A DNA stretch of 32,314 nt from an uncultured Clostridia bacterium (GTDB lineage Bacteria > Bacillota > Clostridia > Oscillospirales > Acutalibacteraceae), in NCBI GenBank assembly GCA_946637545.1, contig CAMPBI010000005.1, positions 1 to 32,314 on the forward strand, written 5' to 3'. Below are positions 309 through 27,154 of this stretch, piece by piece. The position numbers and the translations under genes are program-made. The first letter of the stretch is position 1, and the number at the start of each line of letters is the position of its first letter. The notes below the pieces were generated by a model. It was not told the origin of the DNA and ran no database searches. It saw only the letters and a list, made by a program, of their open reading frames with translations.

Positions 309-1199
309 ATGAGTAATACTAACGACGAATTGCAGACTCTCATCTTTAAGCCAATTAATTTATCGGACGGGGACAGAGTCGAAAACATACGAAAAAAATC
401 AAACAACACCCTTTACCTTTACACCTTTGCTTCGCTGTTTGCGTGGCAGGAGGACGAGCAATACGAAATTTGCTTTGGCGACAACGCCTTCCTTGTGAAA
501 AACGGCGCGGAAGGTGAACACGCATATTTGTTTCCCTGCGGAAGCGATGAGGGGAAGAAAAAGCTTCTTGATTCTCTTTTGAACAACGAAAAACCGGAGC
601 TTTATTCGTTGACAGACGAGGACAAAGCATTTCTTGAAGATGCGTATCCCGGATTATTTGTCTTTGAAGAACGCCGCGATGAATTTATTTATCTGTTTGA
701 CAAGGACGCGCAAATCGAACTGAAGGGCAAGGAGTACAAAAAACAGCGCCATCAGATTCACATAGGCAAAAACTCGGCAGAAAAATGGACCACCGAGCCC
801 ATAACAGCTGCGAATATTGACCGCGCATTAGCTCTGAATGCCAAGTGGGCTGAAAATAAGGGCAGCTATGTACTTGCAGACTTAACCGCTGCAAAGTGCG
901 CGCTTTACAATTTCGACAGCCTTTCAATGTGGGGGCTGCTGTTTCAGGCGGACGGCGAGGACGCGGCATATGTTACAGGCTCGTTCATAACACCCGAAAT
1001 ATTTGATTTGAGCTTTTGCAAGGTGCTTGGCGACAGGCGTGATTTCTTTGTACGCTGGAAGTTTTTTTCATCCTTGCCGCAGGAGGTCAGAATAATTGAC
1101 TCTGAAGAGGACCTCGGAATTGAAGGACTGCGAATCAACAAGCTTTCGCGTCACCCGTCAGAACTGATACGAATTTGGAAAGGCAGCATAAAACAATGA
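309..1199 (+). CDS. DUF2156 family protein (phosphatidylglycerol lysyltransferase C-terminal-like acyltransferase fold)
   Basis: 296 aa ORF; N-terminal 'LIFKPINLSDGDRVENIRKKSNNTLYLYTFASLFAWQ' and overall layout resemble DUF2156. No clear Shine-Dalgarno before the ATG. Stop overlaps the next start (ATGA). Confidence 0.75.
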   Translation: MSNTNDELQTLIFKPINLSDGDRVENIRKKSNNTLYLYTFASLFAWQEDEQYEICFGDNAFLVKNGAEGEHAYLFPCGSDEGKKKLLDSLLNNEKPELYSLTDEDKAFLEDAYPGLFVFEERRDEFIYLFDKDAQIELKGKEYKKQRHQIHIGKNSAEKWTTEPITAANIDRALALNAKWAENKGSYVLADLTAAKCALYNFDSLSMWGLLFQADGEDAAYVTGSFITPEIFDLSFCKVLGDRRDFFVRWKFFSSLPQEVRIIDSEEDLGIEGLRINKLSRHPSELIRIWKGSIKQ

Positions 1200-2932
1200 G
1201 CAAACTCACCGCACCAAAAAGCCATACCTTTACTGACCGTATGTTCCGTCGGTTTTTTCTGCCTACCTTGCTGTCAGCGCTTGGATGGGCTCTGGGCGAT
1301 GTTGCAGACGCCCTTTTTGTCGGTATGCGGCTTGGCAAGGTCGGACTTGCAACTATGTCGATTGTCGCCCCCGTTTATATGATTTATAACGTGCTTGATG
1401 TCGGCATTGCCGTGGGCGCGTCGGTAAAATACGCGCAGGCGCTTGGCAAGGGCGATGCAAAGACAGGTGTTAATTGTTTTTCACAGATGACAATTGTGTC
1501 CGTAATAACAAGCATTGCTGTCGGAATAATCGGACTTCTCGGTATGCCTTTTATTTTGCGATTTCTCGGTGCAGGCTCGCAGCACAGCGAGCTGTGGAAC
1601 TACACAAAAGAGTATTTGCAGATTATGTTTATCGGCGCACCGTTTACATTTTTATACTTTCTGCTTTACTACTGCGTTCGCTGCGACGACAACGAAAAGC
1701 TCGCAAGCGCAGGCTATACAATCGGCTTTCTTACAGATGTTGTGGCAAGCGCCGTATTTATTATGGGCTTCAAGCTTGATGTGCGCGGAGCAATTTATGC
1801 TACCGTGCTCGGAAAAGCAGTCGGCGTGCTGATTTTCCTTTTTCACTTTACAAGAAAATGGACAATCCTGCGCTTTCACTTTGTCAAGCTTGAATTAAAA
1901 ACAATCACCTCTGCACTTAAAACGGGAATGTCATCGTCGTTCGGTTATGTGGGGCAGTTTATTGCTCTGCTTGTTGTAAACAAGCTTTTGCTGCGCATCG
2001 GCGGTTCAAGCGGACTTGCGGTGTTCAATGTTGTGCAGGACGTTTCTTACGTAGCGCTTGCGATTTATACGGCACTCGGCGATACGGTGCAGCCTCTCAG
2101 CGCAACCTTTTACGCCGAGCACAACAAAACAGCTGTAAAACGAATTATGTCGCTCGGTATGCTGATAGGCATTATGAGCGGCGGTGTGATTTCAATGGTG
2201 TTCGCATATTTTGCGCCATTAGTCTGCCGGCTTTTCGGCTTGAGCGGCACTTCAATCATCACCGGCTCTTTCGCCGTGCAGATGTTCTGCCTGTCAGTCA
2301 TTCCCGCCGGAATCAATATTATCTGGAGCTCTTGCTTTCAGGCAATCAAAAAAGAACGGCTTGTATTTCTTATTAATCAGCTCCGCACCTTTGTATGCTT
2401 CCTCGGATTAGCACTTGTGCTTTCACATTTTGGGCTCAAATGGTTTTGGTTCACTTTTCTGTGTGCGGAAATTCTCACACTGATTATTTGGGTGCCTGTC
2501 GCAATTTCAAAAAAGCAGGACGAATCGTCAAAGGTGTTTACATATTTGCTTGATACAAATTCCTCGGATATTTCCGAGCTGCTTTTAAAGGCTGAAGAAT
2601 TCTGCGACAAAAACAATGCCAATATGAAACAGAGCTACTGCGTTTCGATGTGTGTTGAAGAGGTCTGTCAGGCAATTATTGAAAATGCTTTCAATCAAAA
2701 GGGCGACGAGTATATCCAGCTTACGCTCTGCTTTGAAAAAGACGGAACCGTAGTTATTCATATGCGTGACAACGCGGTAAAGTTCAATCCGTTTGCAATG
2801 AAAACGGGCAGCGATTATGACGACGACGAGCAGCTTGCTTCACTTGGTATTCAGATGGTTAAAACAAAATCAAAAAGCTTCTTTTATCGCAGATATTCCG
2901 GCTTTAACACACTTACTGTGGAGGTGGAATAG
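1196..2932 (+). CDS. MATE-family efflux transporter fused to a C-terminal anti-sigma-factor-type HATPase (HATPase_c_2-like) domain
   Basis: About 440 aa polytopic MATE-like region followed by a soluble domain with N-box-like 'SMCVEEVCQAIIENAF', G1-like 'MRDNAVKFNPF' and 'ASLGIQMVKT'. Start set at 1196 (4 bp overlap with upstream stop) instead of 1175. Confidence 0.82.
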   Translation: MSKLTAPKSHTFTDRMFRRFFLPTLLSALGWALGDVADALFVGMRLGKVGLATMSIVAPVYMIYNVLDVGIAVGASVKYAQALGKGDAKTGVNCFSQMTIVSVITSIAVGIIGLLGMPFILRFLGAGSQHSELWNYTKEYLQIMFIGAPFTFLYFLLYYCVRCDDNEKLASAGYTIGFLTDVVASAVFIMGFKLDVRGAIYATVLGKAVGVLIFLFHFTRKWTILRFHFVKLELKTITSALKTGMSSSFGYVGQFIALLVVNKLLLRIGGSSGLAVFNVVQDVSYVALAIYTALGDTVQPLSATFYAEHNKTAVKRIMSLGMLIGIMSGGVISMVFAYFAPLVCRLFGLSGTSIITGSFAVQMFCLSVIPAGINIIWSSCFQAIKKERLVFLINQLRTFVCFLGLALVLSHFGLKWFWFTFLCAEILTLIIWVPVAISKKQDESSKVFTYLLDTNSSDISELLLKAEEFCDKNNANMKQSYCVSMCVEEVCQAIIENAFNQKGDEYIQLTLCFEKDGTVVIHMRDNAVKFNPFAMKTGSDYDDDEQLASLGIQMVKTKSKSFFYRRYSGFNTLTVEVE

Positions 2933-2935
2933 CCT

Positions 2936-3763
2936 ATGAAAGAATCAATCCGCATTGCAGAAAAAAAGGACATTCCCGCGCTTTGTGAAATCTGGAAAGA
3001 ATCCTTCTCTGACAGTGACGAGTATATCCGGTATTTTTACAGCGAAAACTTTGAGCGCATCAAGGTGCTTGTTTACGATGTCGACTCCAAACCTGTGAGT
3101 GCTGTAAATATAATTGACGCTGAATTCGTAAACAAAAATGAAAGCCGCAAGGCAAAATATCTGTACGCAGGCGGCACTCTTTTGGCTCACCGTAAAAAAG
3201 GATATTTTAACGCACTTCTAAAATTTATTGTCGAAACTGAAACAATGCACGGTTGGGGACTGTTTTTAAAGCCGGCTTCACAAAAGCTTACTGAATACTT
3301 TGTACAATTAGGGTTTGAAATTGATTCATACTTTCGCTTTCTGACGGTATCTCCGGGTAGCTTTCAGCCGATTTCAGCGTTGGATATTTCTTACAGCGAC
3401 TACAATCGTATGAGAAACAAGGCTTATTCAAACCTCCCGTTTGTACGTTGGGACGACGCACATCTTTGCTGGTGCGTTAAAGAAAATGAGTATTATTCCG
3501 GCAGAACACTAAAGATTACAATTGACCAAAAGGATTATTTCCTTATGGGCTATCCCGAAGATAAAACGCTGATAATTAATGAAACAAATCTTTCACCCGA
3601 CCAAATCAGGCAGGCAAGCCGCGCCTTGTGTGATTTGTTCGGCACTGAACAGATAAAAGCGTATATGCCCGATTTTTCCTGTAAAGAGGGAGAGCGCATT
3701 TTATCGTCGGTAGTTTATAATTTGCCTATTCGCAATACTTACACAAATCTTATTTTGATTTAA
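2936..3763 (+). CDS. GNAT family N-acetyltransferase
   Basis: 275 aa; GNAT-like core 'YLYAGGTLLAHRKKGYFNALLKFIVE...GWGLFLKPASQKLTEYFVQLGFE'. 3 bp gap from the MATE gene. Confidence 0.7.
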   Translation: MKESIRIAEKKDIPALCEIWKESFSDSDEYIRYFYSENFERIKVLVYDVDSKPVSAVNIIDAEFVNKNESRKAKYLYAGGTLLAHRKKGYFNALLKFIVETETMHGWGLFLKPASQKLTEYFVQLGFEIDSYFRFLTVSPGSFQPISALDISYSDYNRMRNKAYSNLPFVRWDDAHLCWCVKENEYYSGRTLKITIDQKDYFLMGYPEDKTLIINETNLSPDQIRQASRALCDLFGTEQIKAYMPDFSCKEGERILSSVVYNLPIRNTYTNLILI

Positions 3764-3779
3764 AGGAGCGTTATCTGTA

Positions 3780-5876
3780 ATGAAAAAAAGCAAAAATAGA
3801 AAGAATATATCGCTGCGAAAAAAAGCAATATCACTTGTTTTGTTTGCTGCCACGTTGTTATCTCTCATCACCGTTTCGGTCAGCGGAATTTTTTACAGCT
3901 TTAATATGTTTGACCATTACAAGCTGCTTGCCGAACAGCTTGCAGACACCGCCGCTTCGATGATGAGCGCCGAGGATATTACACGGTACTATAACGAGGT
4001 CAAACAAATCGGTCCTTATGATGACGATAAATATAATAACGACGAGTCCTACCGCGAGGCATACGACAAAAAGGTCAACGCCCTGAAGGATGAAGAATAT
4101 CAGCAAATGCTTGACACTCTTTTTACCTTTGAGGACCAGTCGAAAAACAGAAACGACATTAAGTATATTTACGTTCAGGTGCTTGAGGGCGACCATGTTA
4201 CATATATTTTTGACGCGGACCATACGGAGGACCAGTATCAGCTCGGAACAGTGCGTCCGGTATCGGCGGAGGTTATTGATGAGGACGGGCTTGAAAACGG
4301 CGTTCCTGCGTTTACATCAAATGACCCTGACGACGGTTGGCTTTGCTCGTGTATGAGACCTGTCAGAGACGCTGACGGCAAACCGGTTGCCCTTGTCGGC
4401 GTTGATATTTCGATGAGCAGGGTTGTAAAGCTCGGTGTTGTATATTTGATTACACTTATTGCAATCGTTCTTTTCATTACAGCTCTGTTAATCTGGATTC
4501 TCATCAGAGGCGTTGAAAAATCTTTGGTAAAGCCAATCAATAAGCTTTCAAAAGCAGCAAGAAGCTTTGTTGAGGACAAGGGCGAGGAACTGAACAAGGA
4601 ATCAACTATTTCAAAACTCAATATTCACACAGGCGACGAGGTTGAAACCCTGTGGGAATCCATTCGGCATATGGAGCAGGAAATTAACGCATACATAACG
4701 CATTTAACTGCTGTTACCGCCGAAAAAGAAAGAATCGGTGCAGAGCTTGAGCTGGCAACAAGAATTCAGGCGGATATGCTTCCAAATATTTATCCCGCTT
4801 TTCCGGAGAGAGACGACCTTGACATCTATGCAAGTATGACGCCTGCAAAAGAGGTCGGCGGCGACTTCTACGACTTTTTCCTTGTTGACGATTCACATCT
4901 TGCAATGGTTATGGCAGACGTTTCGGGCAAGGGTGTTCCGGCAGCGCTCTTTATGATGATGAGCAAGATTCTTATTCAAAACACAGTAATGAACGGCAAA
5001 TCTCCTGCCGATGCGTTAATGACGGTAAATAATCAGATTTGTGCAAACAACCGCGAGGAGATGTTTGTAACAGTATGGCTGGGTATTGTGGACCTCAAGA
5101 GCGGACTGCTGACTGCGGCAAACGCAGGCCATGAAAAGCCGATAGTAAAATCACCTGACGGCGAATTTGAATTTTTCAGCGACAAGCACGGCTTTGTTAT
5201 CGGCGGTATGGATGGACTGAAATACCATAACTACGAAATTCAGATGAGCAAAGGCTCAAAACTGTTCTTGTATACAGACGGTGTTGCTGAAGCAACAAAC
5301 GAGTCAAAAGAGCTTTTCGGAATTGAAAGAACGCTTGATGCACTAAATAGCTGCAAGGACGCTTCGCCAAAAACTATTCTTGATGCAGTAAAACAATCCG
5401 TTGACGCATTTGTCGGTACAGCGCCGCAGTTCGACGACCTCACAATGCTTTGCTTTGAGTTTAAAGGCAAAGAAAAAAATTTGACCGTTGACGCAACACT
5501 CGACAATGTGGCGACTGTAATTGACTTTGTTGAAAACGAGTCGCACAAACTGCCGTTTTCAAAAAGAAGCGTTAATCAGCTCAATATAGCTGTTGACGAA
5601 ATCATCAGCAATGTTGCAAGATACGCCTATGGCGAAGGCACAGGACAGGTGAGCGTTAGTATTGACAGCGACAGCGAAGGCATCACGTTAACAGTGACCG
5701 ACGGCGGAACACCGTACAATCCGCTTGAAAAAGATGACCCCGACATCTCTCTTTCAGCTGATGAAAGAGGAGTCGGCGGCTACGGAATATTCATTGTCAA
5801 GAACACAATGGACAAGGTCGATTACGACTATAAAGACGGCAAAAACATCCTTACTATTCGCAAAAATTACGATTAA
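3780..5876 (+). CDS. Membrane SpoIIE-family PP2C phosphatase with extracytoplasmic sensor, HAMP-like linker and C-terminal HATPase domain
   Basis: 698 aa; N-terminal TM, extracellular region, second TM, PP2C/SpoIIE motifs 'ATRIQADMLPNIYPAFPERDDLDIYASMTPAKEVGGDFYDFFLVDDSHLAMVMADVSGKGVPAALFM', C-terminal 'LNIAVDEIISNVARYAYGEG...VTDGGTPYNPLEKDDPD...GGYGIFIVKNTMD'. Confidence 0.9.
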   Translation: MKKSKNRKNISLRKKAISLVLFAATLLSLITVSVSGIFYSFNMFDHYKLLAEQLADTAASMMSAEDITRYYNEVKQIGPYDDDKYNNDESYREAYDKKVNALKDEEYQQMLDTLFTFEDQSKNRNDIKYIYVQVLEGDHVTYIFDADHTEDQYQLGTVRPVSAEVIDEDGLENGVPAFTSNDPDDGWLCSCMRPVRDADGKPVALVGVDISMSRVVKLGVVYLITLIAIVLFITALLIWILIRGVEKSLVKPINKLSKAARSFVEDKGEELNKESTISKLNIHTGDEVETLWESIRHMEQEINAYITHLTAVTAEKERIGAELELATRIQADMLPNIYPAFPERDDLDIYASMTPAKEVGGDFYDFFLVDDSHLAMVMADVSGKGVPAALFMMMSKILIQNTVMNGKSPADALMTVNNQICANNREEMFVTVWLGIVDLKSGLLTAANAGHEKPIVKSPDGEFEFFSDKHGFVIGGMDGLKYHNYEIQMSKGSKLFLYTDGVAEATNESKELFGIERTLDALNSCKDASPKTILDAVKQSVDAFVGTAPQFDDLTMLCFEFKGKEKNLTVDATLDNVATVIDFVENESHKLPFSKRSVNQLNIAVDEIISNVARYAYGEGTGQVSVSIDSDSEGITLTVTDGGTPYNPLEKDDPDISLSADERGVGGYGIFIVKNTMDKVDYDYKDGKNILTIRKNYD

Positions 5877-7664: not shown

Positions 7665-7693
7665 TTGTGTTGAGCTGCGTCAGCAGTTATAAT
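7665..7693 (+). promoter_or_regulatory. Putative sigma-A-type promoter for the GH29 gene
   Basis: TTGTGT (7665-7670), 17 bp spacer, TATAAT (7688-7693). Confidence 0.6.
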
Positions 7694-7711
7694 GATTGCG
7701 GAGGTGTTCCT

Positions 7712-9190
7712 ATGACAGTAAACGAGTATTTAAAGCAAATTGACGAGGTTATCAAAAACGGAAAGTACAAAGACGACTGGGCGTCGCTTTCAAACCACAA
7801 AACACCTGAATGGTACTATCGCGATAAGTTCGGAATCTTTATCCACTGGGGCATTTACAGTGTGCCGGGATTTGGCAACGAGTGGTATTCGCGCAATATG
7901 TATAACAGCGACCACCGCGAATTCGAGCATCACCGCAAAACTTACGGCGACCAGAGTGTTTTTGGCTATAAGGATTTTATCCCTATGTTTACGGCTGAAA
8001 AGTTTGACCCGCAAAAATGGGTGGAGCTTTTCAAAGAAAGCGGTGCAAGATTCGTTATGCCCGTATGCGAGCATCACGACGGCTTTGCAATGTATGACAC
8101 CGAATTCAACAGGTGGAACAGTGTTGATATGGGACCGCACCGCGATGTCGCAGGCGAAATCAAAGCCGAGTGTGAAAAGCAGGGACTCACTTTCTGCGCG
8201 TCTACCCACAGAGCAGAGCATTATTTCTTTATGAACACGGGCAGAAACTGCGACAGCGACGTTAACGACGACGCCTACCGCGACTTTTACGGTCCCGCAG
8301 TTACCGAAGAGGCATACAACCGCGATAATATATTCAAAACAACAGAGGACACCTATGCTCCGGGCGCAAGCAAGGAGTGGCTCGAGGACTGGATGGTGCG
8401 TACCTGCGAGCTTATTGACAGGTATCAACCGCGCACGCTTTATTTTGACTGGTGGATTCACAACCACACCTTCAAGCCCTATCTCAAAAAAATTGCGGCT
8501 TATTATTATAACCGTGCAGACGAGTGGGGAGTTGAAACAACTATCATTTTCAAGCATGAGGCATTCCCGCCAACAGTTGCAACCTTTGATGTGGAGCGCG
8601 GCGCGCTTCAGGACATATCACCGCTTCCGTGGCAGTCTGACACCGCAATCGGCAAATGCTCGTGGGGCTACCGTTTTGACAACGAGTATAAGAGCTCGCG
8701 TCAGATTATCACCGACCTTATTGACATCGTCAGCAAAAACGGAATGATGCTGCTCAACGTCGGACCAAAGGGCGACGGCTCAATCACCGACGAGGAAACT
8801 GCAATCCTCAGGGAAATCGGCGCATGGCTTTCAAAGAACGGCGACGGAATTTACGGCACTACATTCTGGAAACAGTTTGGCGAGGGCAAGGTAAACAATG
8901 AGGGCGGATTCTTCAAGGACGGCGATGAAAAGCAGTACACCGCAAAGGATTTTCGCTTTACATATAAGGGCGGCAGCATTTACGCCTTCCAGATGCGCCC
9001 CGACGGCAAGGACGTCAGGATAAAGGCATTTGCAAAGCGCCCCGTTCACGATTTTATTGTTGAAAAAATCACCCTTCTTGAAACGGGCGAGGAGGTCGAA
9101 TTTGAACGCAAAGAGAATTATATGGTTATCAAAAAGACCGACGCTTTCAAGTCCGACAAACCCATCTGCTTCAAAATTAAATTAGCATAA
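7712..9190 (+). CDS. Alpha-L-fucosidase (GH29 family), apparently cytoplasmic
   Basis: 'WYYRDKFGIFIHWGIYSVPGFGNEWYSRNMY', 'FVMPVCEHHDGFAMYDTEFNRWNSVDMGPHRDVAGEI', 'NGMMLLNVGPKGDGSI' are GH29 hallmarks. RBS 'gcggaggtg' supports start at 7712 instead of 7667. No signal peptide seen. Confidence 0.93.
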   Translation: MTVNEYLKQIDEVIKNGKYKDDWASLSNHKTPEWYYRDKFGIFIHWGIYSVPGFGNEWYSRNMYNSDHREFEHHRKTYGDQSVFGYKDFIPMFTAEKFDPQKWVELFKESGARFVMPVCEHHDGFAMYDTEFNRWNSVDMGPHRDVAGEIKAECEKQGLTFCASTHRAEHYFFMNTGRNCDSDVNDDAYRDFYGPAVTEEAYNRDNIFKTTEDTYAPGASKEWLEDWMVRTCELIDRYQPRTLYFDWWIHNHTFKPYLKKIAAYYYNRADEWGVETTIIFKHEAFPPTVATFDVERGALQDISPLPWQSDTAIGKCSWGYRFDNEYKSSRQIITDLIDIVSKNGMMLLNVGPKGDGSITDEETAILREIGAWLSKNGDGIYGTTFWKQFGEGKVNNEGGFFKDGDEKQYTAKDFRFTYKGGSIYAFQMRPDGKDVRIKAFAKRPVHDFIVEKITLLETGEEVEFERKENYMVIKKTDAFKSDKPICFKIKLA

Positions 9191-17309: not shown

Positions 17310-17346
17310 CAAAACAGGCATCTCTTAACGAGATGCCTGTTTTGTT
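17308..17346. terminator. Bidirectional hairpin terminator between convergent genes
   Basis: 17 bp perfect stem aacaaaacaggcatctc-ttaac-gagatgcctgttttgtt. Confidence 0.92.
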
Positions 17347-19840
17347 AAAATGAGAGTTCTGTACGCCTTATCAAATCCATTTGAAGCGGTACACTGAGTT
17401 CAACAAAATATGCGCTGTATCCTGCTACCCGCACAAGCATATCCTTGTGCTTTTCGGGATGCTTCATCGCGTCGCGCATCATTGCCGAGCTCATAATATT
17501 AAACTGGCAGTGCATAGCCTTTTTGTCAAAGTATGCAGTGATGAAATTCACAAGATTTTCTCTGCCCTCAATACCGGTCACGCACTCGGGAGGAAATTTC
17601 CAGTTGAGCAGCGTGCCGTTTGTTGCTTTGGTATGGTCAACCTTGGTGACAGAGTTTGCAATCGCTGTCGGACCGAGAATATCGTGCGACCCTGCAAGCG
17701 TGTGGACGGGACCGAGGTTGTCCGAAATCGGCTCATAGTCCTTTCTGCCGTCGAGCGACGCTTTCAAATCCATACCCAGACCGACGTTTGCATTAACCGT
17801 GTATACACCGGGGCAGAATTCGCCGCCGCGCTCGTTTTTGCGGTGAGCAACATTGTTGCAGTAAATGTCAAAAACGGCTTTGAAAAGGTCGTCGGCGTAG
17901 TCGTCGTCGTTGCCGAAATGATGCACCTTTTCACTGTTCACAAGGGCATAAAGCGCTTCATAGCCCTCCCAGTTATTTTCAACTGCGGCAAGAAGCTCCT
18001 TGCCCGTGTATTTCTTTTCGTCAAAAACAAGCTGCTTTACCGTTGACAAAATATCTGCGCAGGTTGCAATTCCGCTTGCCTGCGGACCTGTAAAGTTGTA
18101 TTTTGCACCGCCTGCATTGAGCTCCTTGCCCGATTCAACGCAGTCCTCAAAGAACGCCGAGGCATAGGGGAGGGGCTTCACGGCGCTGTGCGCCCTGTCA
18201 ATGCAGTTGATGTTGCGGCACATCTTTTCCACCCAGTATGCAGTCTGCCTGTTAAACGCGTCAAGCACCTCGTCAATGCTCTTGTAAGTGGTGAGGTCGC
18301 CGTAGTTCGGCGCAAGCGTTTCGCCCTTGCCTGCGCATCTGTCGTAAACCTTGCAGTCCTTGCTGCAGCCAATGCACTTGCCGCCGTTGAGGGTGAGCTC
18401 CATAACCTTTGCAATGTTCATATATGCCGCGTCGTGATAGCCGTATTCCTTACCCGCAAGGTCGGGCTCAACGCAGCCGACAACCTCATAGCAGCGTGCT
18501 TCCTCAATCGACATACCCTTGCCGAGCATAACGGGAATTGCCGCCTGGTCGTTGAAAAGCTTGGGGTGACCGTAGCCAGCGCGGATGCACTCAACAGCCT
18601 TTACCTTGAGCTCATAAGGCGTTTTTTCGTGAATCCTCACGCACATCCACGGGTCCATCATTCGCGTGTGAACAGACGCTTCAAGCAGCATAAATGTAAG
18701 GTCGTTAGTCGCGTCGTTGCCGTCTTTGTCAACTCCGCCGACTGTCAGGCTTTCACCGCCCCAGCCTCTGCCGTTTCGCACCTTTGTGCTGCCCTTGTCA
18801 CGCAGCTTTGACGGGTTTCCGCACTTTATGAACGCACATTCAAGCAGTTCCTGTTCAAACTCTTTTGTCACATTGCCGCGCTGCATATCAGCCTTGTAAA
18901 ACGGATAAAGCCACATATCCATTCTGCCGTATGAAACAGAGTGTCCGTTCGATTCAATAAGCGCAATTGTTGTTACAAAATTCCACAGTTGCAGCGCCTG
19001 CCACATAGTTTGCGGCACGCCGCCCGCAATCGCCTTGCAGTTGTCTGAAATTGCGACGAGCTCCGCCTTCCGTTTTTCGTTGGCTTCAACCTCTGCCATC
19101 TCTTTTGCAAGACAGGAATAGCGCATAATATAATCTTTTGAAGCATTCAGGCTGATAATCATAGCCTCGAGGAATTCAGCGGAATCAGCGTTCTTTTTCA
19201 GTGATTCCTCCGCCTCTTCAATCATACCGTCAAGACCGATTTTCATCAGCCTCTCATAATCCATAACATAGTGACCGACGCCTGCAAAGTGGTACAGGTT
19301 TGTCATATACACTTTTTTGCCGAGCGAGCCGCCCTTTAGCTGTGCTTCGTCAAGCTGCGGAGTAATGCTGTCGGCAACGGTCTTGCCCTCCCAGAACGGC
19401 AAAATCTTCAACAGTTCAGCCTTGTCTTCGGGAGTTATGAAAAACTTATCGTGCTCTCTGTCAGCAAAGGTGCCGTCGCCGTCAAGCTCGTCAAGCAGCC
19501 AGTCAACAGAAAACTCCGGATAAATCGGCGCCGATTTCGGCTTTGCGCAGATATCGCCGATTATAAGCTCGTCGTCGTGAATATAGAGCTTTGCCTCTGA
19601 AAGTATCTTTTTAAGAAAAACTGCCGTTTTCATAACGGGCGAAAGGTCGGGGTTTTCCCTGTAAACCTCGGTGATAACTTTTGCACGGTATATATCAATA
19701 TTGAACTCGCGCTCAAGAAAAAGTTTTCGCAGCTTGTTAACTCTTTCATACGGCGAAAAATCGTCGTGCCCCGACTTGTAGCCGATACCGTAGTTTTTGT
19801 CAAACGGCTCTGTGCCGATGGCAGTTGTTGTGTAATTCAT
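17345..19840 (-). CDS. Glycyl radical enzyme (pyruvate formate-lyase/dehydratase superfamily), substrate unresolved
   Basis: 831 aa; thiyl-radical loop 'CYEVVGCVEPDLAGKEYGYHDAAYMN', glycyl radical loop 'RVAGYSAYFVELSVPLQMDLIRRTELSF', 'IESNGHSVSYGRMDMWLYPFY'. Confidence 0.93.
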   Translation of the reverse strand: MNYTTTAIGTEPFDKNYGIGYKSGHDDFSPYERVNKLRKLFLEREFNIDIYRAKVITEVYRENPDLSPVMKTAVFLKKILSEAKLYIHDDELIIGDICAKPKSAPIYPEFSVDWLLDELDGDGTFADREHDKFFITPEDKAELLKILPFWEGKTVADSITPQLDEAQLKGGSLGKKVYMTNLYHFAGVGHYVMDYERLMKIGLDGMIEEAEESLKKNADSAEFLEAMIISLNASKDYIMRYSCLAKEMAEVEANEKRKAELVAISDNCKAIAGGVPQTMWQALQLWNFVTTIALIESNGHSVSYGRMDMWLYPFYKADMQRGNVTKEFEQELLECAFIKCGNPSKLRDKGSTKVRNGRGWGGESLTVGGVDKDGNDATNDLTFMLLEASVHTRMMDPWMCVRIHEKTPYELKVKAVECIRAGYGHPKLFNDQAAIPVMLGKGMSIEEARCYEVVGCVEPDLAGKEYGYHDAAYMNIAKVMELTLNGGKCIGCSKDCKVYDRCAGKGETLAPNYGDLTTYKSIDEVLDAFNRQTAYWVEKMCRNINCIDRAHSAVKPLPYASAFFEDCVESGKELNAGGAKYNFTGPQASGIATCADILSTVKQLVFDEKKYTGKELLAAVENNWEGYEALYALVNSEKVHHFGNDDDYADDLFKAVFDIYCNNVAHRKNERGGEFCPGVYTVNANVGLGMDLKASLDGRKDYEPISDNLGPVHTLAGSHDILGPTAIANSVTKVDHTKATNGTLLNWKFPPECVTGIEGRENLVNFITAYFDKKAMHCQFNIMSSAMMRDAMKHPEKHKDMLVRVAGYSAYFVELSVPLQMDLIRRTELSF

Positions 19841-19841
19841 T

Positions 19842-20798
19842 TTAATGAATCTCCTTTGTGGTGGTGCCTATTGTGCAATTGATACCGCGGTCTGAAAAGC
19901 ATTTTTTGATATTTTCAATCCTGCTTTCAAACGCGGTTTTGTTGTATTTTAAGTCGCTCATAGGATATGGAATACCGAGCGAGTGGTATTTTTCTTCGCC
20001 AAGCGGCATATAACGCAAAAGCTGAACAACCGAAACTTTTCCGCCGAGCCTTTGTATTATAAAATCCGCCGTTTCGGCAGCATTTTTTATATTGTCGTTA
20101 AACTTTGGAATTATCGGAATTCTGACAATCAGCGGAGTGTCGCACTCGTTACAAAAACGCTCAAAGTTTGACAGTATTCTTTCGTTTGAAAAGCCGACGT
20201 ATTTTGTGTGCATACGCTTGTCCATATGCTTGATGTCCGCAATAAAAAGGTCAGTGTACGGCTCAATCTGCGCTATAAATTCATAGTCCGCTTCAAACGC
20301 CGACTCCACGCAGGTGTGAATGCCGAGATGGCGGCACTCCTTCAGCAGCTCAAGCACAAATCCGCTTTGCATCAGCGGTTCGCCGCCCGAAATTGTTACA
20401 CCGCCCGAGGATTTTTTGTAATACTCGGCGTCTTTTTTTATTATTTCCATAACCTCGTCCACGCTCATAACCTGCCCCCACTGCCTGATAGCAACAGCAG
20501 GGCAGACCTCGGCGCATTTCATACACGAGGTGCACTTTGCTCTGTCAACGCTTTTGATTATGCCGCTTTCAAATTCAATACAGCCTTCGCCGCAGGCGTT
20601 CTTGCAGTAGCCGCAGCTGCTTTCGCCGATACATTTTGACGGATAAATTCCGAGCTCGGCTTCGGCATTTTTGCTTTCGGGATTGCTGCACCACCTGCAG
20701 TCAAGCGGGCAGCCCTTAAGAAACACCTCTGTCCTGATTCCCGGACCGTCATTTATGGTGTAGCGCTGGATATTAAAAACCGTAGCCTTTTCCGACAT
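19842..20798 (-). CDS. Glycyl-radical enzyme activating protein (radical SAM, with ferredoxin-like Cys cluster insert)
   Basis: 'GPGIRTEVFLKGCPLDCRWCSNPES' (CxxxCxxC), two additional Cys clusters 'CGYCKNACGEGC' and 'CTSCMKCAEVCP', 'GGVTISGGEPLMQ'. Adjacent to GRE. Confidence 0.95.
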   Translation of the reverse strand: MSEKATVFNIQRYTINDGPGIRTEVFLKGCPLDCRWCSNPESKNAEAELGIYPSKCIGESSCGYCKNACGEGCIEFESGIIKSVDRAKCTSCMKCAEVCPAVAIRQWGQVMSVDEVMEIIKKDAEYYKKSSGGVTISGGEPLMQSGFVLELLKECRHLGIHTCVESAFEADYEFIAQIEPYTDLFIADIKHMDKRMHTKYVGFSNERILSNFERFCNECDTPLIVRIPIIPKFNDNIKNAAETADFIIQRLGGKVSVVQLLRYMPLGEEKYHSLGIPYPMSDLKYNKTAFESRIENIKKCFSDRGINCTIGTTTKEIH

Positions 20799-20801
20799 AG
20801 A

Positions 20802-22235
20802 TTACAGGATTCCTTTTAAAATAATACATTTCTGCTTTGTGAGTTCGTTAAAGGTTGAATAAACGCCTTCCGTGCCGATACCCGACTTTTTGTATCCGCC
20901 AAACGGCATTTCAAAGCTTCTGAAATAACTTGAGCCGTTAATAACAACGGAGCCTGCTTCAAACTCGTTTGAAAAACGCATTGCCTTTTTCATATCGTTT
21001 GTGAACACGCTTGCACCAAGACCGAACTTTGTGTCGTTTGCAAGCGCAAGAGCCTCGTCATCGTCATCAAATGAGCAGCAGGAAATAACGGGACCGAATA
21101 CCTCTGTGTCGTGCATAACGTCGGCAGAGTAGGGCACATCCGCAATCACCGTAGGCTCAATAACGGTCTTGTCGCGCTTTCCGCCGCACACAAGGCGTCC
21201 GCCCTGCGCAACAGTCATCTGAATCTGCTTTTCAACCTCGATAGCGGCAGACTCGTTTATGAGCGTGCCGATGTCGGTTGACTCGTCAGTCGGAGCGCCG
21301 ATTTTAAAGGTCTTTACCTCCGTTGCAACTCTGCTGACAAATTCATCGTAAAGGATTTTATGAATGATAAATCTTTTTGGCGCGCAGCAAATCTGACCCG
21401 CATTGAAAAATCTTGTGTAAACAGCCTCTTTGACTGCAAGGTCAAGCGACGCGTCCTCAAGAACAATGAATGCGTCGTTGCCGCCAAGCTCAAGCGCAAC
21501 GTTTTTGAGCGTTCCGGCAGATGCCTTTGCCACGTTAACGCCGACTGCAGTTGAGCCTGTGAGCGTGAGCGCCTCAATAATCGGGTTTTCGGATATAAAG
21601 TCTCCGATTTCGCTTCCTCTGCCCGTAACATACTGAACAACGCCGTCAGGAACGCCCGCTTCGTGCAGCAGCATAACAAGTCTGCCAACGGTGAGCGGAT
21701 TTTCCATCGACGGTTTAACGATAACTGTGTTGCCTGAAAGTATTGCAGGTGCAACCTTCTGATTGAAAAGATTGCAGGGAAAGTTGAAGGGGATAACGCA
21801 TGCAACAACGCCGATTGGCTCGCGAACGGTAATAACAATATCGCCGTCGTGGTTTTCCTCCTGACCTGCAGGAATTACCGAGCCGTAGAGGTGCTTTGCC
21901 TTTTCGGCAAATGCCTTCCACGCAATCTGAATATTGTTGATTTCAATTCTTGACTGGCGAATCGGCTTGCCTGATTCTGCAGTGAGGAGCTGCGCAAGCT
22001 CTTCCTTGTTTTCGTCAACGAGAGCAAGGAAGCTGCCGACCATTTCAGCTTTTTTGTAAACGGGAACCTTTCGCCAGCTTTTCTGTGCTTCTTTTGCAAT
22101 AGCGGCGCAGTTGTCAATATCTTCTTTTGTAGCAGAGGGAACAGTGTCAACAATTTCTCCTGTGTACGGATTGTACACGGGCAATTCCTTTTTGCTCGAC
22201 GATGCAACCTGCCGTCCGTTAATAATCATCTGCAT
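20802..22235 (-). CDS. NAD(P)-dependent aldehyde dehydrogenase
   Basis: 477 aa; 'VIPFNFPCNLFNQKVAPAILSGNTVIVKPS', 'ALELGGNDAFIVLEDA', catalytic Cys 'NAGQICCAPKRFI', 'MPFGGYKKSGIGTEG'. Confidence 0.94.
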   Translation of the reverse strand: MQMIINGRQVASSSKKELPVYNPYTGEIVDTVPSATKEDIDNCAAIAKEAQKSWRKVPVYKKAEMVGSFLALVDENKEELAQLLTAESGKPIRQSRIEINNIQIAWKAFAEKAKHLYGSVIPAGQEENHDGDIVITVREPIGVVACVIPFNFPCNLFNQKVAPAILSGNTVIVKPSMENPLTVGRLVMLLHEAGVPDGVVQYVTGRGSEIGDFISENPIIEALTLTGSTAVGVNVAKASAGTLKNVALELGGNDAFIVLEDASLDLAVKEAVYTRFFNAGQICCAPKRFIIHKILYDEFVSRVATEVKTFKIGAPTDESTDIGTLINESAAIEVEKQIQMTVAQGGRLVCGGKRDKTVIEPTVIADVPYSADVMHDTEVFGPVISCCSFDDDDEALALANDTKFGLGASVFTNDMKKAMRFSNEFEAGSVVINGSSYFRSFEMPFGGYKKSGIGTEGVYSTFNELTKQKCIILKGIL

Positions 22236-22268
22236 ATGCGTTCCTCCAACATATAATTATCCAAAATA

Positions 22269-22297
22269 ATTATATATAATTGAATTACAAATTACAA
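22269..22297 (-). promoter_or_regulatory. Putative promoter for the ALDH-activase-GRE operon
   Basis: Minus strand TTGTAA, 17 bp, TATAAT. Confidence 0.55.
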
Positions 22298-22370
22298 TAC
22301 ATAAATATACAAATAATTTGCTAAAACTTTATAATTTTTTTACATTTCAGTCTAAAATCAGCAATTTTTG

Positions 22371-22399
22371 TTGACATAGTTGTATATATAAATTATAAT
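22371..22399 (+). promoter_or_regulatory. Perfect-consensus sigma-A promoter for the dlt-like operon
   Basis: TTGACA (22371-22376), 17 bp spacer, TATAAT (22394-22399). Confidence 0.85.
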
Positions 22400-22434
22400 T
22401 TTGAAATGAAAATTATTCTATGAGATGATTCGTT

Positions 22435-23868
22435 ATGAATGACGCAAAAAAATCAGAGATAAAAAAGACCGGCGGATTCCTTTTAAGTGCAATCTGCCTT
22501 TTTTTGGTGTTTGCATTTCTGTTTAATATAGTTTCCACTATCCTTGTTCAGCCGCACGACGACAGAAGCTACTCAATGATTCGCGGCTTTTATGAGGAAG
22601 AGGAAAACTCGCTCGATGCCGTTTTTATCGGCTCAAGCACATCTTACACAGACTGGAACGCCGCAATCGCGTGGGAAAACTATGGCATTACCGGCTTTTC
22701 GTTTACCTCGCCCGCGCAGCATTTTGCCGCGCAGGAGTATCTTTGCAAAGAGGCTCGCAAAACGCAGCCAAACGCCGTTTACGTTTTTAATCTCGTTCCC
22801 ATCTGCGAATATTTTGACGGCGACGAAACATACGGTTATCACGCGCTGCTTGACTATATGCCGCTTTCGCTCAACAAGCTGAAAATGACAAAGGTCCTTT
22901 GCGACGACGCCGGCTTTGACTACAGGGAGAGCGCCGAATATTTTGTTCCGCTTGTAAGGTACCACAGTGCGTGGAATACCTGGGACGGCAGCAATATGCA
23001 CAAGGAATTTGACGGCTACAAGGGAGTTCCTCACTATGTCAGGTTTTTACGGAGCCGATATAATGTTGACGGCGAATTCAAAGAGATAACCGAAAGGGCA
23101 GAGCTCAAGGGCGACCTTGAAAAAATTAAAAACGACGTTCAGAGCCTGCTTGATTATCTTAAGGAGGAAAACGTCAACGCGATGTTCCTTGTAACACCCA
23201 CTGTCGGTAAGGATAAAATTATTTACGAGTGCATTAATTCCGCTGCCGATATGGCAAGGGAAGCAGGCTTTACCGTTGTTGACTTTCAGAACAAAAAAAT
23301 GCTTGAATCAATTGAACTTGATTTTACAAAGGATTTTTATAATCACAACCATCTCAACATTCACGGTGCGCTCAAGATGACCGAATACCTCTGCGAGTAC
23401 CTTACAAATAATTATGACATCAAGGACAAGCGTGAGGATAAAAGCTTTTCTGCCGCGCAGGGCTGGGACGACGTTTTCACGAAGCTGAAAGCAAAAATGT
23501 CACCGTATGTTCTGCCGCAGGAATATTATATGAATGTGGATTATACTTACTCCGCGCCGAGCGTTTCAGTCAGCGTTTCAGACGATAAGGCTGACACTTA
23601 CAACGTTTCGTGGTCTCACGAGGAATCAGCCGGCAGCTACACTCTTTACAGAAAAGACAGATACACGTCGACTTGGAATAAGGTCGCTGAATTTGACGGC
23701 AGCGTCAGCACCTTTACCGATACTTACAAGGTCGAGAATTCCGAAGAGGACGGACCGTACTACACGGTTATTGCAAGCAAAAATGAGGGCGGCAAAACCG
23801 TATGGAGCAATTACAACTACAAGGGCGTTTACATCCCTGCTGACCTGAGAACAGGAGGGCAAAAATGA
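22435..23868 (+). CDS. SGNH/DltD-like membrane-anchored protein with C-terminal fibronectin-III-like domain
   Basis: N-terminal TM; 'AVFIGSSTSYTDWNAAIAWENYGITGFSF' Ser motif; late 'DFYNHNHLNIHGALKMTEYL' Asp/His motif; C-terminal 'APSVSVSVSDDKADTYNVSWSHEESAGSYTLYRKD'. Confidence 0.78.
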   Translation: MNDAKKSEIKKTGGFLLSAICLFLVFAFLFNIVSTILVQPHDDRSYSMIRGFYEEEENSLDAVFIGSSTSYTDWNAAIAWENYGITGFSFTSPAQHFAAQEYLCKEARKTQPNAVYVFNLVPICEYFDGDETYGYHALLDYMPLSLNKLKMTKVLCDDAGFDYRESAEYFVPLVRYHSAWNTWDGSNMHKEFDGYKGVPHYVRFLRSRYNVDGEFKEITERAELKGDLEKIKNDVQSLLDYLKEENVNAMFLVTPTVGKDKIIYECINSAADMAREAGFTVVDFQNKKMLESIELDFTKDFYNHNHLNIHGALKMTEYLCEYLTNNYDIKDKREDKSFSAAQGWDDVFTKLKAKMSPYVLPQEYYMNVDYTYSAPSVSVSVSDDKADTYNVSWSHEESAGSYTLYRKDRYTSTWNKVAEFDGSVSTFTDTYKVENSEEDGPYYTVIASKNEGGKTVWSNYNYKGVYIPADLRTGGQK

Positions 23869-25466
23869 GTTATCAGACCGTTAATTTCCTGCTGTTTTCG
23901 CTTGCGATATTAATCGTATATTACCTTGCCGGTGCAATCAGCGGCAAGCTGCAAAAATATATTCTGCTTGCAGGCAGCCTTGTATTTTACTATATCGGGG
24001 GCGCAAAGTACCTTCCGTTTTTAATCACAACGCTTTTGATTTCGTACCTTTCGGGACTGATAATGCAGCGCATTCATAACAAGGCTGAAGTAAGCCTTGA
24101 AAAATGCGAATCACCTGCGGACAAAAAGCTTGTGCGAAAAAAGGCAAAGACAAAAACAAAAATTGTCCTCAACCTTTCAATGCTCATTCCGATAGCGCTG
24201 CTTGTCGTGTGCAAGTACACAAAATTCATCATCAAAAGCACAAACCTTGTTCTTTTAAAAGCAGGCTCGTCGCATCATTTTGATGTAATCAATTTCATTC
24301 TTCCTGTCGGAATTTCGTTTTACACGCTTATGGCGCTCAGCTATATGCTCGATATATACTGGAAACGCTATAAGGCAGAGAAGAATCTTATCAACTACGC
24401 AGCATATCTGACTTTTTTCCCGCACATCGTGCAGGGACCGTTTGACCGCTTTAACAAGTTTAACGACCAGATTAAGAACGGAATAAAATTTGACCCGTAC
24501 AATATCCAAAGCGGCGTAATGCTGATTATCTGGGGCTTTTTCAAAAAGCTTGTAATTGCCGACAGACTTGCAATGTTTGTCGACACGATATTTGACAATT
24601 ACACCGAGTATCACGGATTTATCATAATCCTTGCCACGATGGTTTATTCTGTTCAGATTTACGCCGATTTCTCGGGATGTATCGACATCGTATCGGGCGT
24701 CAGCGAATGCTTTGGCATCAAACTTGCCGAAAACTTTAACCACCCGTATTTCTCAAGAACGATGATGGAGTTCTGGCGCAGATGGCACATCTCGCTTCAG
24801 GAGTGGTTCAAGGATTACATCTATTTCCCTGTGTCAATGAGCGGCTTTGTGAAGGGCGTCAAAAAATCCGCAAAGAAAAAGGGCAACAAAAAAGCCGGCG
24901 AGCTTTTCGCCTCGTGCTTCCCGATTCTGATTGTGTGGATTGTAACGGGCATATGGCACGGCGCAAGCTGGAAATACGTTACATGGGGTATGTTCCATGC
25001 GTTTCTTCTGATTTCAAGCAAGGTGTTTGAGGACACTAACGCCAAAATCACCAAAGCGCTCAAAATCAGAACAGAGTCGTGGGGCTTTGCCCTTTTCCAG
25101 ATGACGCGTACATATATGCTGTGCTGCGTGGGCAGACTGTTTTTCAGAGCGCCGCGTCTCACCGCGTCGGCAGGACTTATCAAAAATATATTCAACGAGG
25201 GCTTCGGCTGGAGCTATCTCGGCTTCGAAAAGCTTGCAACATACGGACTTGACCTGAACAACATTTTTGTTTCCGTTATTGCAGTAATTGTTCTTCTTGC
25301 AGGTGATATTCTGCAGGAAAAAATGAATGTCAGAAACAAACTTATCACTGAAAACAGCTTTGTTTTGCGCTGGTGCCTTATTCTTCTCGGCGTTTTTGCC
25401 GTAATCATTTTCGGCATCTATGGCCCCGGCTACAATGCAAGCAGTTTCATATATCAGGAATTCTAA
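23865..25466 (+). CDS. MBOAT family O-acyltransferase (DltB/AlgI-like)
   Basis: 'FFPHIVQGPFDRFNKF', 'YADFSGCIDIVSGVSECFGIKLAENFNHPYFSRTMMEFWRRWHISLQEWFKDYIYFP', 'VTGIWHGASWKYVTWGMFHA'. Confidence 0.95.
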   Translation: MSYQTVNFLLFSLAILIVYYLAGAISGKLQKYILLAGSLVFYYIGGAKYLPFLITTLLISYLSGLIMQRIHNKAEVSLEKCESPADKKLVRKKAKTKTKIVLNLSMLIPIALLVVCKYTKFIIKSTNLVLLKAGSSHHFDVINFILPVGISFYTLMALSYMLDIYWKRYKAEKNLINYAAYLTFFPHIVQGPFDRFNKFNDQIKNGIKFDPYNIQSGVMLIIWGFFKKLVIADRLAMFVDTIFDNYTEYHGFIIILATMVYSVQIYADFSGCIDIVSGVSECFGIKLAENFNHPYFSRTMMEFWRRWHISLQEWFKDYIYFPVSMSGFVKGVKKSAKKKGNKKAGELFASCFPILIVWIVTGIWHGASWKYVTWGMFHAFLLISSKVFEDTNAKITKALKIRTESWGFALFQMTRTYMLCCVGRLFFRAPRLTASAGLIKNIFNEGFGWSYLGFEKLATYGLDLNNIFVSVIAVIVLLAGDILQEKMNVRNKLITENSFVLRWCLILLGVFAVIIFGIYGPGYNASSFIYQEF

Positions 25467-25484: not shown

Positions 25485-25706
25485 ATGGACGAATTACTTG
25501 AAATGCTTTCGGAAAAATTCCCGAACATCGACTTTGAAAACGAGGACAAGCTCTACGAAAAGGGTATTCTCGATTCAGTATCGGTAGTTGAAATTATTTC
25601 AGAGATTGAGGATATGTTTGACGTGTCTGTATCAATGGAGTACATTCAGCCCAAATACTTTGAATCTGCACAGGCAATGTGGGATATGATTGAGGAACTT
25701 TCATAA
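25485..25706 (+). CDS. Acyl carrier protein (DltC-like)
   Basis: 73 aa; phosphopantetheine site 'YEKGILDSVSVVEIISEIEDMFDVSV'. Confidence 0.9.
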   Translation: MDELLEMLSEKFPNIDFENEDKLYEKGILDSVSVVEIISEIEDMFDVSVSMEYIQPKYFESAQAMWDMIEELS

Positions 25707-27154
25707 TGGTAAAATCTGTTGTGGAGGCAGTTTTTGAGGGTGCGGCAAAGCACCCTCAAAAATGCTGTCTGGCGGACGATAATGTTAGCGTAACTTATGA
25801 CGAATACGCAAAAAAAATCAAAAAATTTGCCGCTTATCTTTTGTCGCAGAATGTTAAAAGGGGCGACAAGGTTGTAATCGAGGCGTGCCAGAGCGTTGAC
25901 TATCTCGCAATTCAGCTTGCGTGCCAGCTTATCGGCGCAGTTTTTGTGCCTGTCGAGCACAACTGCGCGGCAGAAAAAATTGCAGAGCTTTCAAAGCGTG
26001 TGAACGCAGCGTATGTGATTGCGGTTAAAGATAGCGACGGCGTTACCTTTGACGAGTTTGCAATCGGCGCAGAAGGTGCAGCAGAGCTTGAAAACTATAC
26101 TCTGCCGCAGGGCGACGAGGTGTGCGAAATCCTGTTCAGCACAGGAACGACGGGCAAGGAAAAGGGAATAATTCTCACCCACAAAAACGACATTGCGCTT
26201 GCCGAAAACGTTATGTACGGCGTTGAGATGAAGGAGGACAATGTCGAGCTTATTCCGTCGCCGCTTAATCACTCGCACGGACTGCGCAGGTACTATGCAA
26301 ATATGGTGATGGGCGCAACCGTTATCGTTATTTCGGGCGTGCTTAATCCGCTTAAGTTTTTTGCACTGATGGACGAGTACGGAGTTACGGCAATTGACCT
26401 TGTGCCGACTGCGCTTACAGTGCTGCTCAAAATTTCAAAAAACAAGTTCGGCGAGTATAAGGACAAGCTGCGCTATATTCAGTTCGGCGCCGCTCCGCTT
26501 ATGGATGCCGACAAGGAAAAAATCTGCGCGCTCCTGCCGAACACAAGACTGTATAATTTTTACGGCAGCACCGAGAGCGGCTGCATTGTGATTTATAATT
26601 TCAATGTTGAAAACGCCAAGAAAAACTGCATCGGCAAGCCTGCTTGCAACGCGGAAATTACGATAGTTGACGACAACCGCAACCCGATTGAATCCTCACT
26701 TGAAAATACGGGACTGCTTGCCTCAAGGGGCGCAATGAATATGAGCGGTTACTACGAGGACGAGGAGGAAACGAAGGCTGTTCTTATTGACGGTGTTGTT
26801 TACACGAACGACGTCTGCTATATTGACGGTGACGGCGACATTATTCTGCTTGGCAGACAAGGCTCCGTTATGAATGTCGGCGGCAAAAAGGTTTCACCCG
26901 ATGAAATCGAAAATGCCGCAAAGCAGATTAAGGGCGTTATCGACTGCGGCTGCGTGCCTGTCGACGACGCAATGCTCGGCTCTGTGCCGAAGCTTTTTGT
27001 GCAAACGCGAAACGAAAGTGCCTTTGACCCCGTTATGATAAGAACGGAGCTGTCAAAAACACTCGAACCGTTCAAGATTCCAAAGTACATCGTGTTTATT
27101 GAAAAAATCCCTCGTACCTTCAACGGCAAAATAATCCGCAGAGAATTAAAATAA
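25706..27154 (+). CDS. AMP-dependent acyl/amino-acid ligase (DltA-like / acyl-CoA synthetase superfamily)
   Basis: 'LFSTGTTGKEKGIILTHKND', 'LYNFYGSTESGC', 'ILLGRQGSVMNVGGKKVSPDEIE', 'IPRTFNGKIIRREL'. Confidence 0.93.
   Translation: MVKSVVEAVFEGAAKHPQKCCLADDNVSVTYDEYAKKIKKFAAYLLSQNVKRGDKVVIEACQSVDYLAIQLACQLIGAVFVPVEHNCAAEKIAELSKRVNAAYVIAVKDSDGVTFDEFAIGAEGAAELENYTLPQGDEVCEILFSTGTTGKEKGIILTHKNDIALAENVMYGVEMKEDNVELIPSPLNHSHGLRRYYANMVMGATVIVISGVLNPLKFFALMDEYGVTAIDLVPTALTVLLKISKNKFGEYKDKLRYIQFGAAPLMDADKEKICALLPNTRLYNFYGSTESGCIVIYNFNVENAKKNCIGKPACNAEITIVDDNRNPIESSLENTGLLASRGAMNMSGYYEDEEETKAVLIDGVVYTNDVCYIDGDGDIILLGRQGSVMNVGGKKVSPDEIENAAKQIKGVIDCGCVPVDDAMLGSVPKLFVQTRNESAFDPVMIRTELSKTLEPFKIPKYIVFIEKIPRTFNGKIIRRELK

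Follow-up and report, generated by a model that had tools for sequence, protein, structure and literature searches.

An HpfG-type glycyl radical enzyme paired with an aldehyde dehydrogenase: a candidate oxidative route to 3-sulfopropionate in an uncultured Clostridia bacterium

We analyzed a 32,314-nucleotide stretch of DNA (the window) from an uncultured Clostridia bacterium of the family Acutalibacteraceae (GenBank assembly GCA_946637545.1, contig CAMPBI010000005.1). Its minus strand carries a compact operon encoding an aldehyde dehydrogenase (ALDH), a radical-SAM activase and a glycyl radical enzyme (GRE). By every sequence test applied, the GRE is HpfG, the dehydratase of (2S)-3-sulfopropanediol (2,3-dihydroxypropane-1-sulfonate, DHPS). 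We think it probable that the operon is an HpfG/HpfH module in which DHPS would be dehydrated to 3-sulfopropionaldehyde and a hydrolytic-type ALDH would then oxidize the aldehyde to 3-sulfopropionate. The operon comprises:

17345–19840, minus strand: HpfG-type GRE, 831 residues (NF048009, tree, residue columns, AlphaFold2 model)
19842–20798, minus strand: HpfH-type radical-SAM GRE activase, 318 residues (best NCBIfam match NF048008)
20802–22235, minus strand: non-acylating-type ALDH, 477 residues (Pfam Aldedh; N151, E249, C283)

A sequence-only reading of this DNA had described the same gene order with minimal gaps; these measure 3 bp between ALDH and activase and 1 bp between activase and GRE, and plausible ribosome-binding sites precede all three open reading frames. 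The Pfam matches are PFL-like (657 bits) and Gly_radical for the GRE, Radical_SAM and a ferredoxin domain for the activase, and Aldedh (510 bits) for the ALDH. The arrangement is not a chance one, because five other loci keep GRE and activase at 76–83% identity and three of these have a whole ALDH; the other two show only its C-terminal end, at a contig edge. No second PFL-like GRE is present in the genome, which spans 1.5 Mb in 142 contigs and is 92% complete. The sequence-only reading had also seen no microcompartment, and this extends to the entire genome: no protein matches the shell family PF00936, which leaves the locus outside the GRE-associated microcompartment type and dismisses a microcompartment encoded elsewhere.

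Clade and active site of the glycyl radical enzyme

The GRE matches NF048009, the HpfG equivalog model, over its full length (profile positions 1–824 of 824) with 1365.7 bits against a cut-off of 1000. The next NCBIfam equivalogs stay far below their cut-offs: HypD reaches 558 of 1100 bits, CutC 504 of 1050 and the sulfolyase-type HpsG 476 of 1000. GRE relatives were taken from named genomes, from plasmids and from genomes across the family, order and class to which the window belongs. In the resulting tree, a quick search with no mixture model, the window GRE lies within an 18-row HpfG clade through three nested groups with SH-aLRT (approximate likelihood-ratio test) supports of 100, 99 and 100. 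Innermost are the five loci mentioned above, from metagenome-assembled genomes that, going by title and isolate code, are probably mostly of ruminant-gut origin. The next ring holds HpfGs of Lachnospiraceae and Anaerovoracaceae at 63–68% identity to the window GRE, and the outer ring four sequences at 56–60%. Among the latter, those of Enterococcus raffinosus (L053) and Fusobacteria ZRK30 (L054) sit in HpfH-HpfG-HpfE-HpfD clusters, and L076 is accompanied by HpfD. Both complete clusters are plasmid-borne, on a megaplasmid in E. raffinosus and a plasmid in ZRK30, so DHPS fermentation genes can be carried on plasmids.

The sister loci of the Lachnospiraceae type add genomic context. At eight of them, HpfH-HpfG adjoins a divergent SsuABC-type ABC importer; the one binding protein tested among them (L035) scores 179 against the SsuA_fam cut-off of 163.5. 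A further locus, L038, has in a row sulfonate-type ABC genes, an ALDH 64% identical to that of the window, an iron-containing alcohol dehydrogenase (Fe-ADH), HpfH and HpfG, its binding protein scoring under the SsuA_fam cut-off. At L047, the C-terminal part of an ALDH is followed by HpfH and HpfG.

All the catalytic columns of glycerol dehydratase that we examined are kept in the GRE (C456, E458, H190, H300/S301, D470, Y680 and G807). The radical cysteine lies in the motif G455-C456-V457-E458-P459, with H469 and D470 at 13 and 14 residues after it, and the glycyl loop reads R804-V-A-G807-Y. The sequence-only reading had recorded this motif and spacing correctly and had taken the HD pair as the mark of the dehydratase/decarboxylase/lyase branch. 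The enzyme does belong to that branch, but the pair is not diagnostic on its own, since PflD-type GREs share it.

An AlphaFold2 model of the GRE (predicted local distance difference test score, pLDDT, of 90), from an alignment that excluded two sequences from plasmid records, has propanediol and glycerol dehydratases as its best PDB folds; the C–S lyases IslA and HpsG rank 38th and 43rd. With the B12-independent glycerol and 1,2-propanediol dehydratases (1r8w, 5i2a, 9rco) the GRE shares the fold, the expected elimination chemistry and the conserved residues H164, S282, D447, E435, C433 and Y640 (glycerol dehydratase numbering). It differs from them in overall sequence (37–38% identity), in a glycine, G362, at the position of Tyr339 or Phe, and in two arginines conserved in HpfGs.

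These arginines belong to the stretch that distinguishes HpfGs, R355-N/S-G-R358-G-[WF]-G-G362-E-S, which in the window GRE reads RNGRGWGGES. R355 occurs in 18 of 18 HpfGs and in none of 27 other GREs; R358 occurs in the same 18, in 3 of 9 sister GREs and in none of 18 others. We derived this signature from the compared sequences and not from the literature, so these counts are partly circular as a criterion for HpfG. In other diol dehydratases, the two positions are occupied by Phe and Tyr. Judged by its spacing from a conserved aromatic position, R355 takes the substrate-contact position of CutC Phe389 and HypD Ser334, and G362, likewise by spacing, that of the aromatic residue that packs on the substrate in most eliminases (PMC8473560).

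The sequence-only reading had considered the substrate impossible to assign from sequence and the operon possibly a new radical pathway. Neither view survives: by NF048009, tree and residue columns, the GRE falls in the characterized HpfG subgroup with its active-site residues conserved, which points to DHPS.

Two side observations concern the HpfG family. Three sister GREs of unassigned substrate (L077, L078, L081) score about 1026–1142 bits with NF048009, barely over the cut-off, and are without R355; the model may over-call HpfG on them. In addition, residues about 489–505 of the window GRE form a cysteine-rich insertion of the C-x2-C-x3-C-x5-C type, GKCIGCSKDCKVYDRCAGKG, which glycerol dehydratase does not have. 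Most HpfGs carry the insertion, possibly a metal or Fe-S site; it is missing in L053, L054 and L076.

Aldehyde dehydrogenase, proposed pathway and competing explanations

The ALDH retains N151, E249 and C283, as do all nine aligned ALDH sequences, with E249 in an invariant LELGGN. CoA-acylating ALDHs do not have the general-base glutamate of hydrolytic ALDHs. The presence of this glutamate makes the window ALDH an improbable counterpart of HpfX, which in Enterococcus gilvus is CoA-acylating; this distinction follows the family rule, with no HpfX sequence compared. No NCBIfam equivalog matches the ALDH above its cut-off. Full-length homologues adjoining HpfG at other loci are 64–82% identical to it. 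Among 297 genomes of the order, the next-best homologues reach 44–48%, so the close form seems to go with HpfG. This pairing does not require the dlt-like operon described below, because L038 has the ALDH and no such operon within the sequence read; L047, a short contig, is uninformative on this point. The nearest ALDH relatives outside HpfG loci (46–48%) adjoin a split transketolase pair and an Fe-ADH (L116, 7180–11955; L117, 4110–8525), an arrangement that recalls the sulfo-transketolase pathway.

No HpfD ortholog was found among the Fe-ADH matches in the 92%-complete genome, nor in the conserved block around the operon. The one true Fe-ADH, on contig C96, is 32–35% identical to HpfDs, which are 63–73% identical to one another, and the only other PF00465 match, a weak one, falls inside an aroB-like open reading frame. 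We therefore rejected an HpfD encoded elsewhere. In a published survey, HpfD was found in every HpfXYZ cluster (PMC11489063), which makes an HpfG module with only an ALDH a departure.

In the pathway we propose, the HpfH-type activase would install a glycyl radical on G807 of HpfG, and the resulting thiyl radical on C456 would take a hydrogen from the CH2OH carbon of DHPS. Water would be eliminated as in glycerol dehydratase, with E458, H190, S301 and D470, to give 3-sulfopropionaldehyde, while R355 and R358 would hold the sulfonate of the substrate. The NAD(P)-dependent hydrolytic ALDH would then oxidize the aldehyde directly to 3-sulfopropionate. For both reactions, the formation of 3-sulfopropionaldehyde by HpfG and the oxidation of this aldehyde to 3-sulfopropionate, the chemistry has been published (PMC11489063). 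The module would thus represent an oxidative branch, distinct from the NADH-consuming HpfD branch and from the CoA- and ATP-forming HpfX-HpfYZ branch. The expectation of the sequence-only reading, that a dehydratase-branch GRE would yield an aldehyde for the adjacent ALDH to oxidize, is supported by this assignment. The source of DHPS is sulfoquinovose, a sulfur compound of plants that is very abundant (PMC11489063). An HpfG module that lacks HpfD and forms the oxidized product alone would add a distinct 3-sulfopropionate source, apparently in ruminant-gut bacteria.

Compared with the known HpfG-HpfH clusters of Klebsiella oxytoca, Hungatella and E. gilvus, the window operon agrees in equivalog score, clade, catalytic residues and arginine signature; it differs in having neither HpfD nor HpfE and in placing the ALDH first. 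The bifurcated HpfX-HpfYZ pathway of E. gilvus (PMC11489063) likewise has a PF00171 ALDH beside HpfG and the predicted end product 3-sulfopropionate, whereas the window ALDH has a hydrolytic-type motif, the block holds neither HpfYZ nor HpfD, and no ATP is expected. As far as we have seen, neither the variant with an ALDH for HpfD nor its link to a dlt-like operon is described in the literature searched.

Several observations weigh against the proposed pathway. The activase has the HpfH model NF048008 as the best of all its NCBIfam matches, but at 444.9 bits it stays below the cut-off of 500; we therefore call it HpfH-type and not HpfH. It does exceed the cut-off of the PFLE_PFLC subfamily model. 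Several residues near the active site are not the same in the window clade as in HpfD-linked HpfGs (W360/F, D460/S, Y468/W and W747/L). Within the window we recognized neither a sulfonate importer nor any sulfoquinovose gene, and the genome's sole strong NMT1-type binding protein, encoded outside the window, has no NCBIfam match at E ≤ 1e-20, on which ground we rejected an importer encoded elsewhere. No HpfYZ-like gene was recognized in the window or the homologous blocks, a result obtained with no genome-wide HpfYZ search. Finally, a hydrolytic ALDH would provide neither ATP nor usable carbon, so that the catabolic benefit is not obvious.

The differing residues near the active site would suit an HpfG homologue that acts on a different small, anionic diol such as glycerate, which would be dehydrated to malonate semialdehyde and oxidized by the ALDH to malonate. 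R355 and R358 could bind anions in general, here a carboxylate, and the ligase of the linked operon is akin to acyl-CoA ligases; one of the models it matches, below the cut-off, is that of a malonyl-CoA synthase. However, the catalytic and arginine-signature positions match those of HpfGs from HpfD clusters, SsuABC-type importers accompany the sister clade, and we know of no glycerate-dehydrating GRE. We regard this explanation as improbable. We give similarly little weight to an ordinary bifurcated DHPS fermentation as in E. gilvus, with the ALDH serving as HpfX and with HpfYZ and HpfD elsewhere in the genome. An aldehyde-oxidizing PF00171 enzyme beside HpfG has the published precedent cited above, and the incomplete genome does have one true Fe-ADH. 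Against it stand the distance of that Fe-ADH from HpfDs, the general-base glutamate of the ALDH (as noted, no HpfX sequence was compared), the lack of a recognized HpfYZ-like gene in the window and the constant presence of HpfD in the surveyed HpfXYZ clusters.

A glycerol or 1,2-propanediol dehydratase working with a propionaldehyde or 3-hydroxypropionaldehyde dehydrogenase and fed by fucose, a link the sequence-only reading had raised as speculation, is very improbable. The closest solved folds are of this type and an alpha-L-fucosidase (PF01120), which probably prompted that speculation, is encoded at 7667–9190, but the GRE lies outside the clade of these dehydratases at low identity to their structures, glycine replaces the aromatic residue at the Tyr339 position, the two HpfG-type arginines are present, and relatives do not keep the fucosidase next to the block. 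On clade, residues and fucosidase we therefore rejected the fucose route. The sulfonate-linked sister loci could also suggest a C–S lyase of the HpsG or IslA type that releases sulfite. We consider this the most remote of the explanations, given the retained dehydratase residues, the low rank of the IslA and HpsG structures and a score far under the HpsG cut-off; a trimethylamine-lyase was rejected on a CutC score likewise far under its cut-off.

The adjoining dlt-like operon and the fate of 3-sulfopropionate

A four-gene operon diverges from the ALDH gene:

22236–22434, no strand: AT-rich divergent intergenic and promoter region separating the operons, 199 bp
22435–23868, plus strand: membrane-anchored SGNH/DltD-PatB-like protein with a C-terminal FN3-like domain, 477 residues (low-confidence AlphaFold2 fold matches)
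23865–25466, plus strand: MBOAT acyltransferase, 533 residues (PF03062; C-terminal acyl-shuttle hexapeptide FIYQEF, of the form FxYxxF)
25485–25706, plus strand: DltC-like acyl carrier protein, 73 residues (phosphopantetheine site GILDS; PF00550)
25706–27154, plus strand: AMP-forming acyl ligase, 482 residues (PF00501; without the amino-binding Asp of nonribosomal peptide synthetases (NRPS) and DltA)

This operon and that of HpfG make up a single conserved block, flanked by unrelated DNA. Among 60 genomes of the genus, HpfG occurs in five; the identical five carry the MBOAT protein at 72% identity or more, and the other 55 have neither (p = 1.8e-7 if the genomes were independent; they are related, so this value overstates the evidence). 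Both operons are directly contiguous in three genomes (G000, G941 and G968). In G964, the ALDH is split across two contigs whose ends carry the two halves of the block, and in G938 the halves lie on separate contigs that both stop close to where the junction is expected. Outside the block, no gene is common to any two loci in the stretches read, save for a generic ABC-ATPase similarity. Recent acquisition could not be judged by GC content, since the values for the cassette (46.5%) and its flanks (44.5 and 46.9%) are uninformative. No conserved operator shared by the two operons was recognized in the intergenic region, which aligns poorly with those of three relatives.

The MBOAT protein matches the DltB model below its cut-off and ends in FIYQ[ED]F in all five orthologues; FxYxxF is the acyl-shuttle motif of DltX and PatA (PMC12148441). 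The carrier protein scores 24.2 bits with PF00550 (cut-off 20.8) and is 84–85% identical in relatives. The SGNH-like protein has no Pfam match, and its low-confidence model (pLDDT 63) gives weak matches to a GDSL hydrolase, DltD (3bma), PatB (7tlv) and FN3 domains, which makes the SGNH assignment a weak one. The ligase matches PF00501 with 202 bits, and DltA is not among its 25 best NCBIfam matches. In an alignment with LgrA and paralogues, its motif LNHSHGLRRYY places a serine at the amino-binding Asp position of NRPS and DltA. In its ligase, carrier, MBOAT protein with FxYxxF and putative SGNH-like partner, the operon resembles the Dlt (DltA-B-C-D) and PatA/PatB systems (PMC12148441). It differs from them in a ligase that is not DltA, and it combines a shuttle motif fused to the MBOAT protein, as in PatA, with a carrier, as in Dlt.

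Paralogous dlt-like clusters with a ligase, a carrier or a gap in its place, an MBOAT protein and an SGNH-like protein are common in the genus (L132–L136), and their ligases are DltA-like, of the amino-acid-adenylation type. Two of the five combine the Asp with a pyridoxal phosphate (PLP) decarboxylase-like gene; in L134 and L135, a PLP gene resembling diaminopimelate decarboxylase lies inside the operon. Because the other three also have Ser, the absence of Asp in the window ligase is suggestive but not unique to the HpfG block.

For 3-sulfopropionate itself, one open option is excretion, with the module only supplying reducing power. Alternatively, the seven genes may constitute one system, in which the ligase would adenylate 3-sulfopropionate and load it onto the carrier, and the MBOAT and SGNH-like proteins would place 3-sulfopropionyl groups on a surface glycan. 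The acid would then be a building block, in a sulfonated counterpart of D-alanylation, and not a product of DHPS fermentation. We put this forward tentatively, as an idea that is on balance unlikely, because HpfG and the MBOAT protein occur in the same five genomes, the block is conserved between unrelated flanks, the ligase is without the amino-acid-binding Asp, and a PLP amino-acid enzyme is encoded in some paralogous clusters, which may set a precedent for operons equipped with the enzyme that makes their acyl group. An envelope acyl group would explain both the co-occurrence and an ALDH that yields no ATP. In the literature searched, 3-sulfopropionyl appears as a CoA intermediate only, with no link to a carrier protein or the envelope. 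If the envelope link were true, it would, to our knowledge, give a GRE a part in cell-surface decoration for the first time and would introduce a new sulfonated acyl group.

Elsewhere in the window, positions 1175–5876 encode an odd signaling cluster of a MatE transporter fused to an anti-sigma-type HATPase_c_2 domain, a GNAT protein and a SpoIIE phosphatase, also fused to HATPase_c_2.

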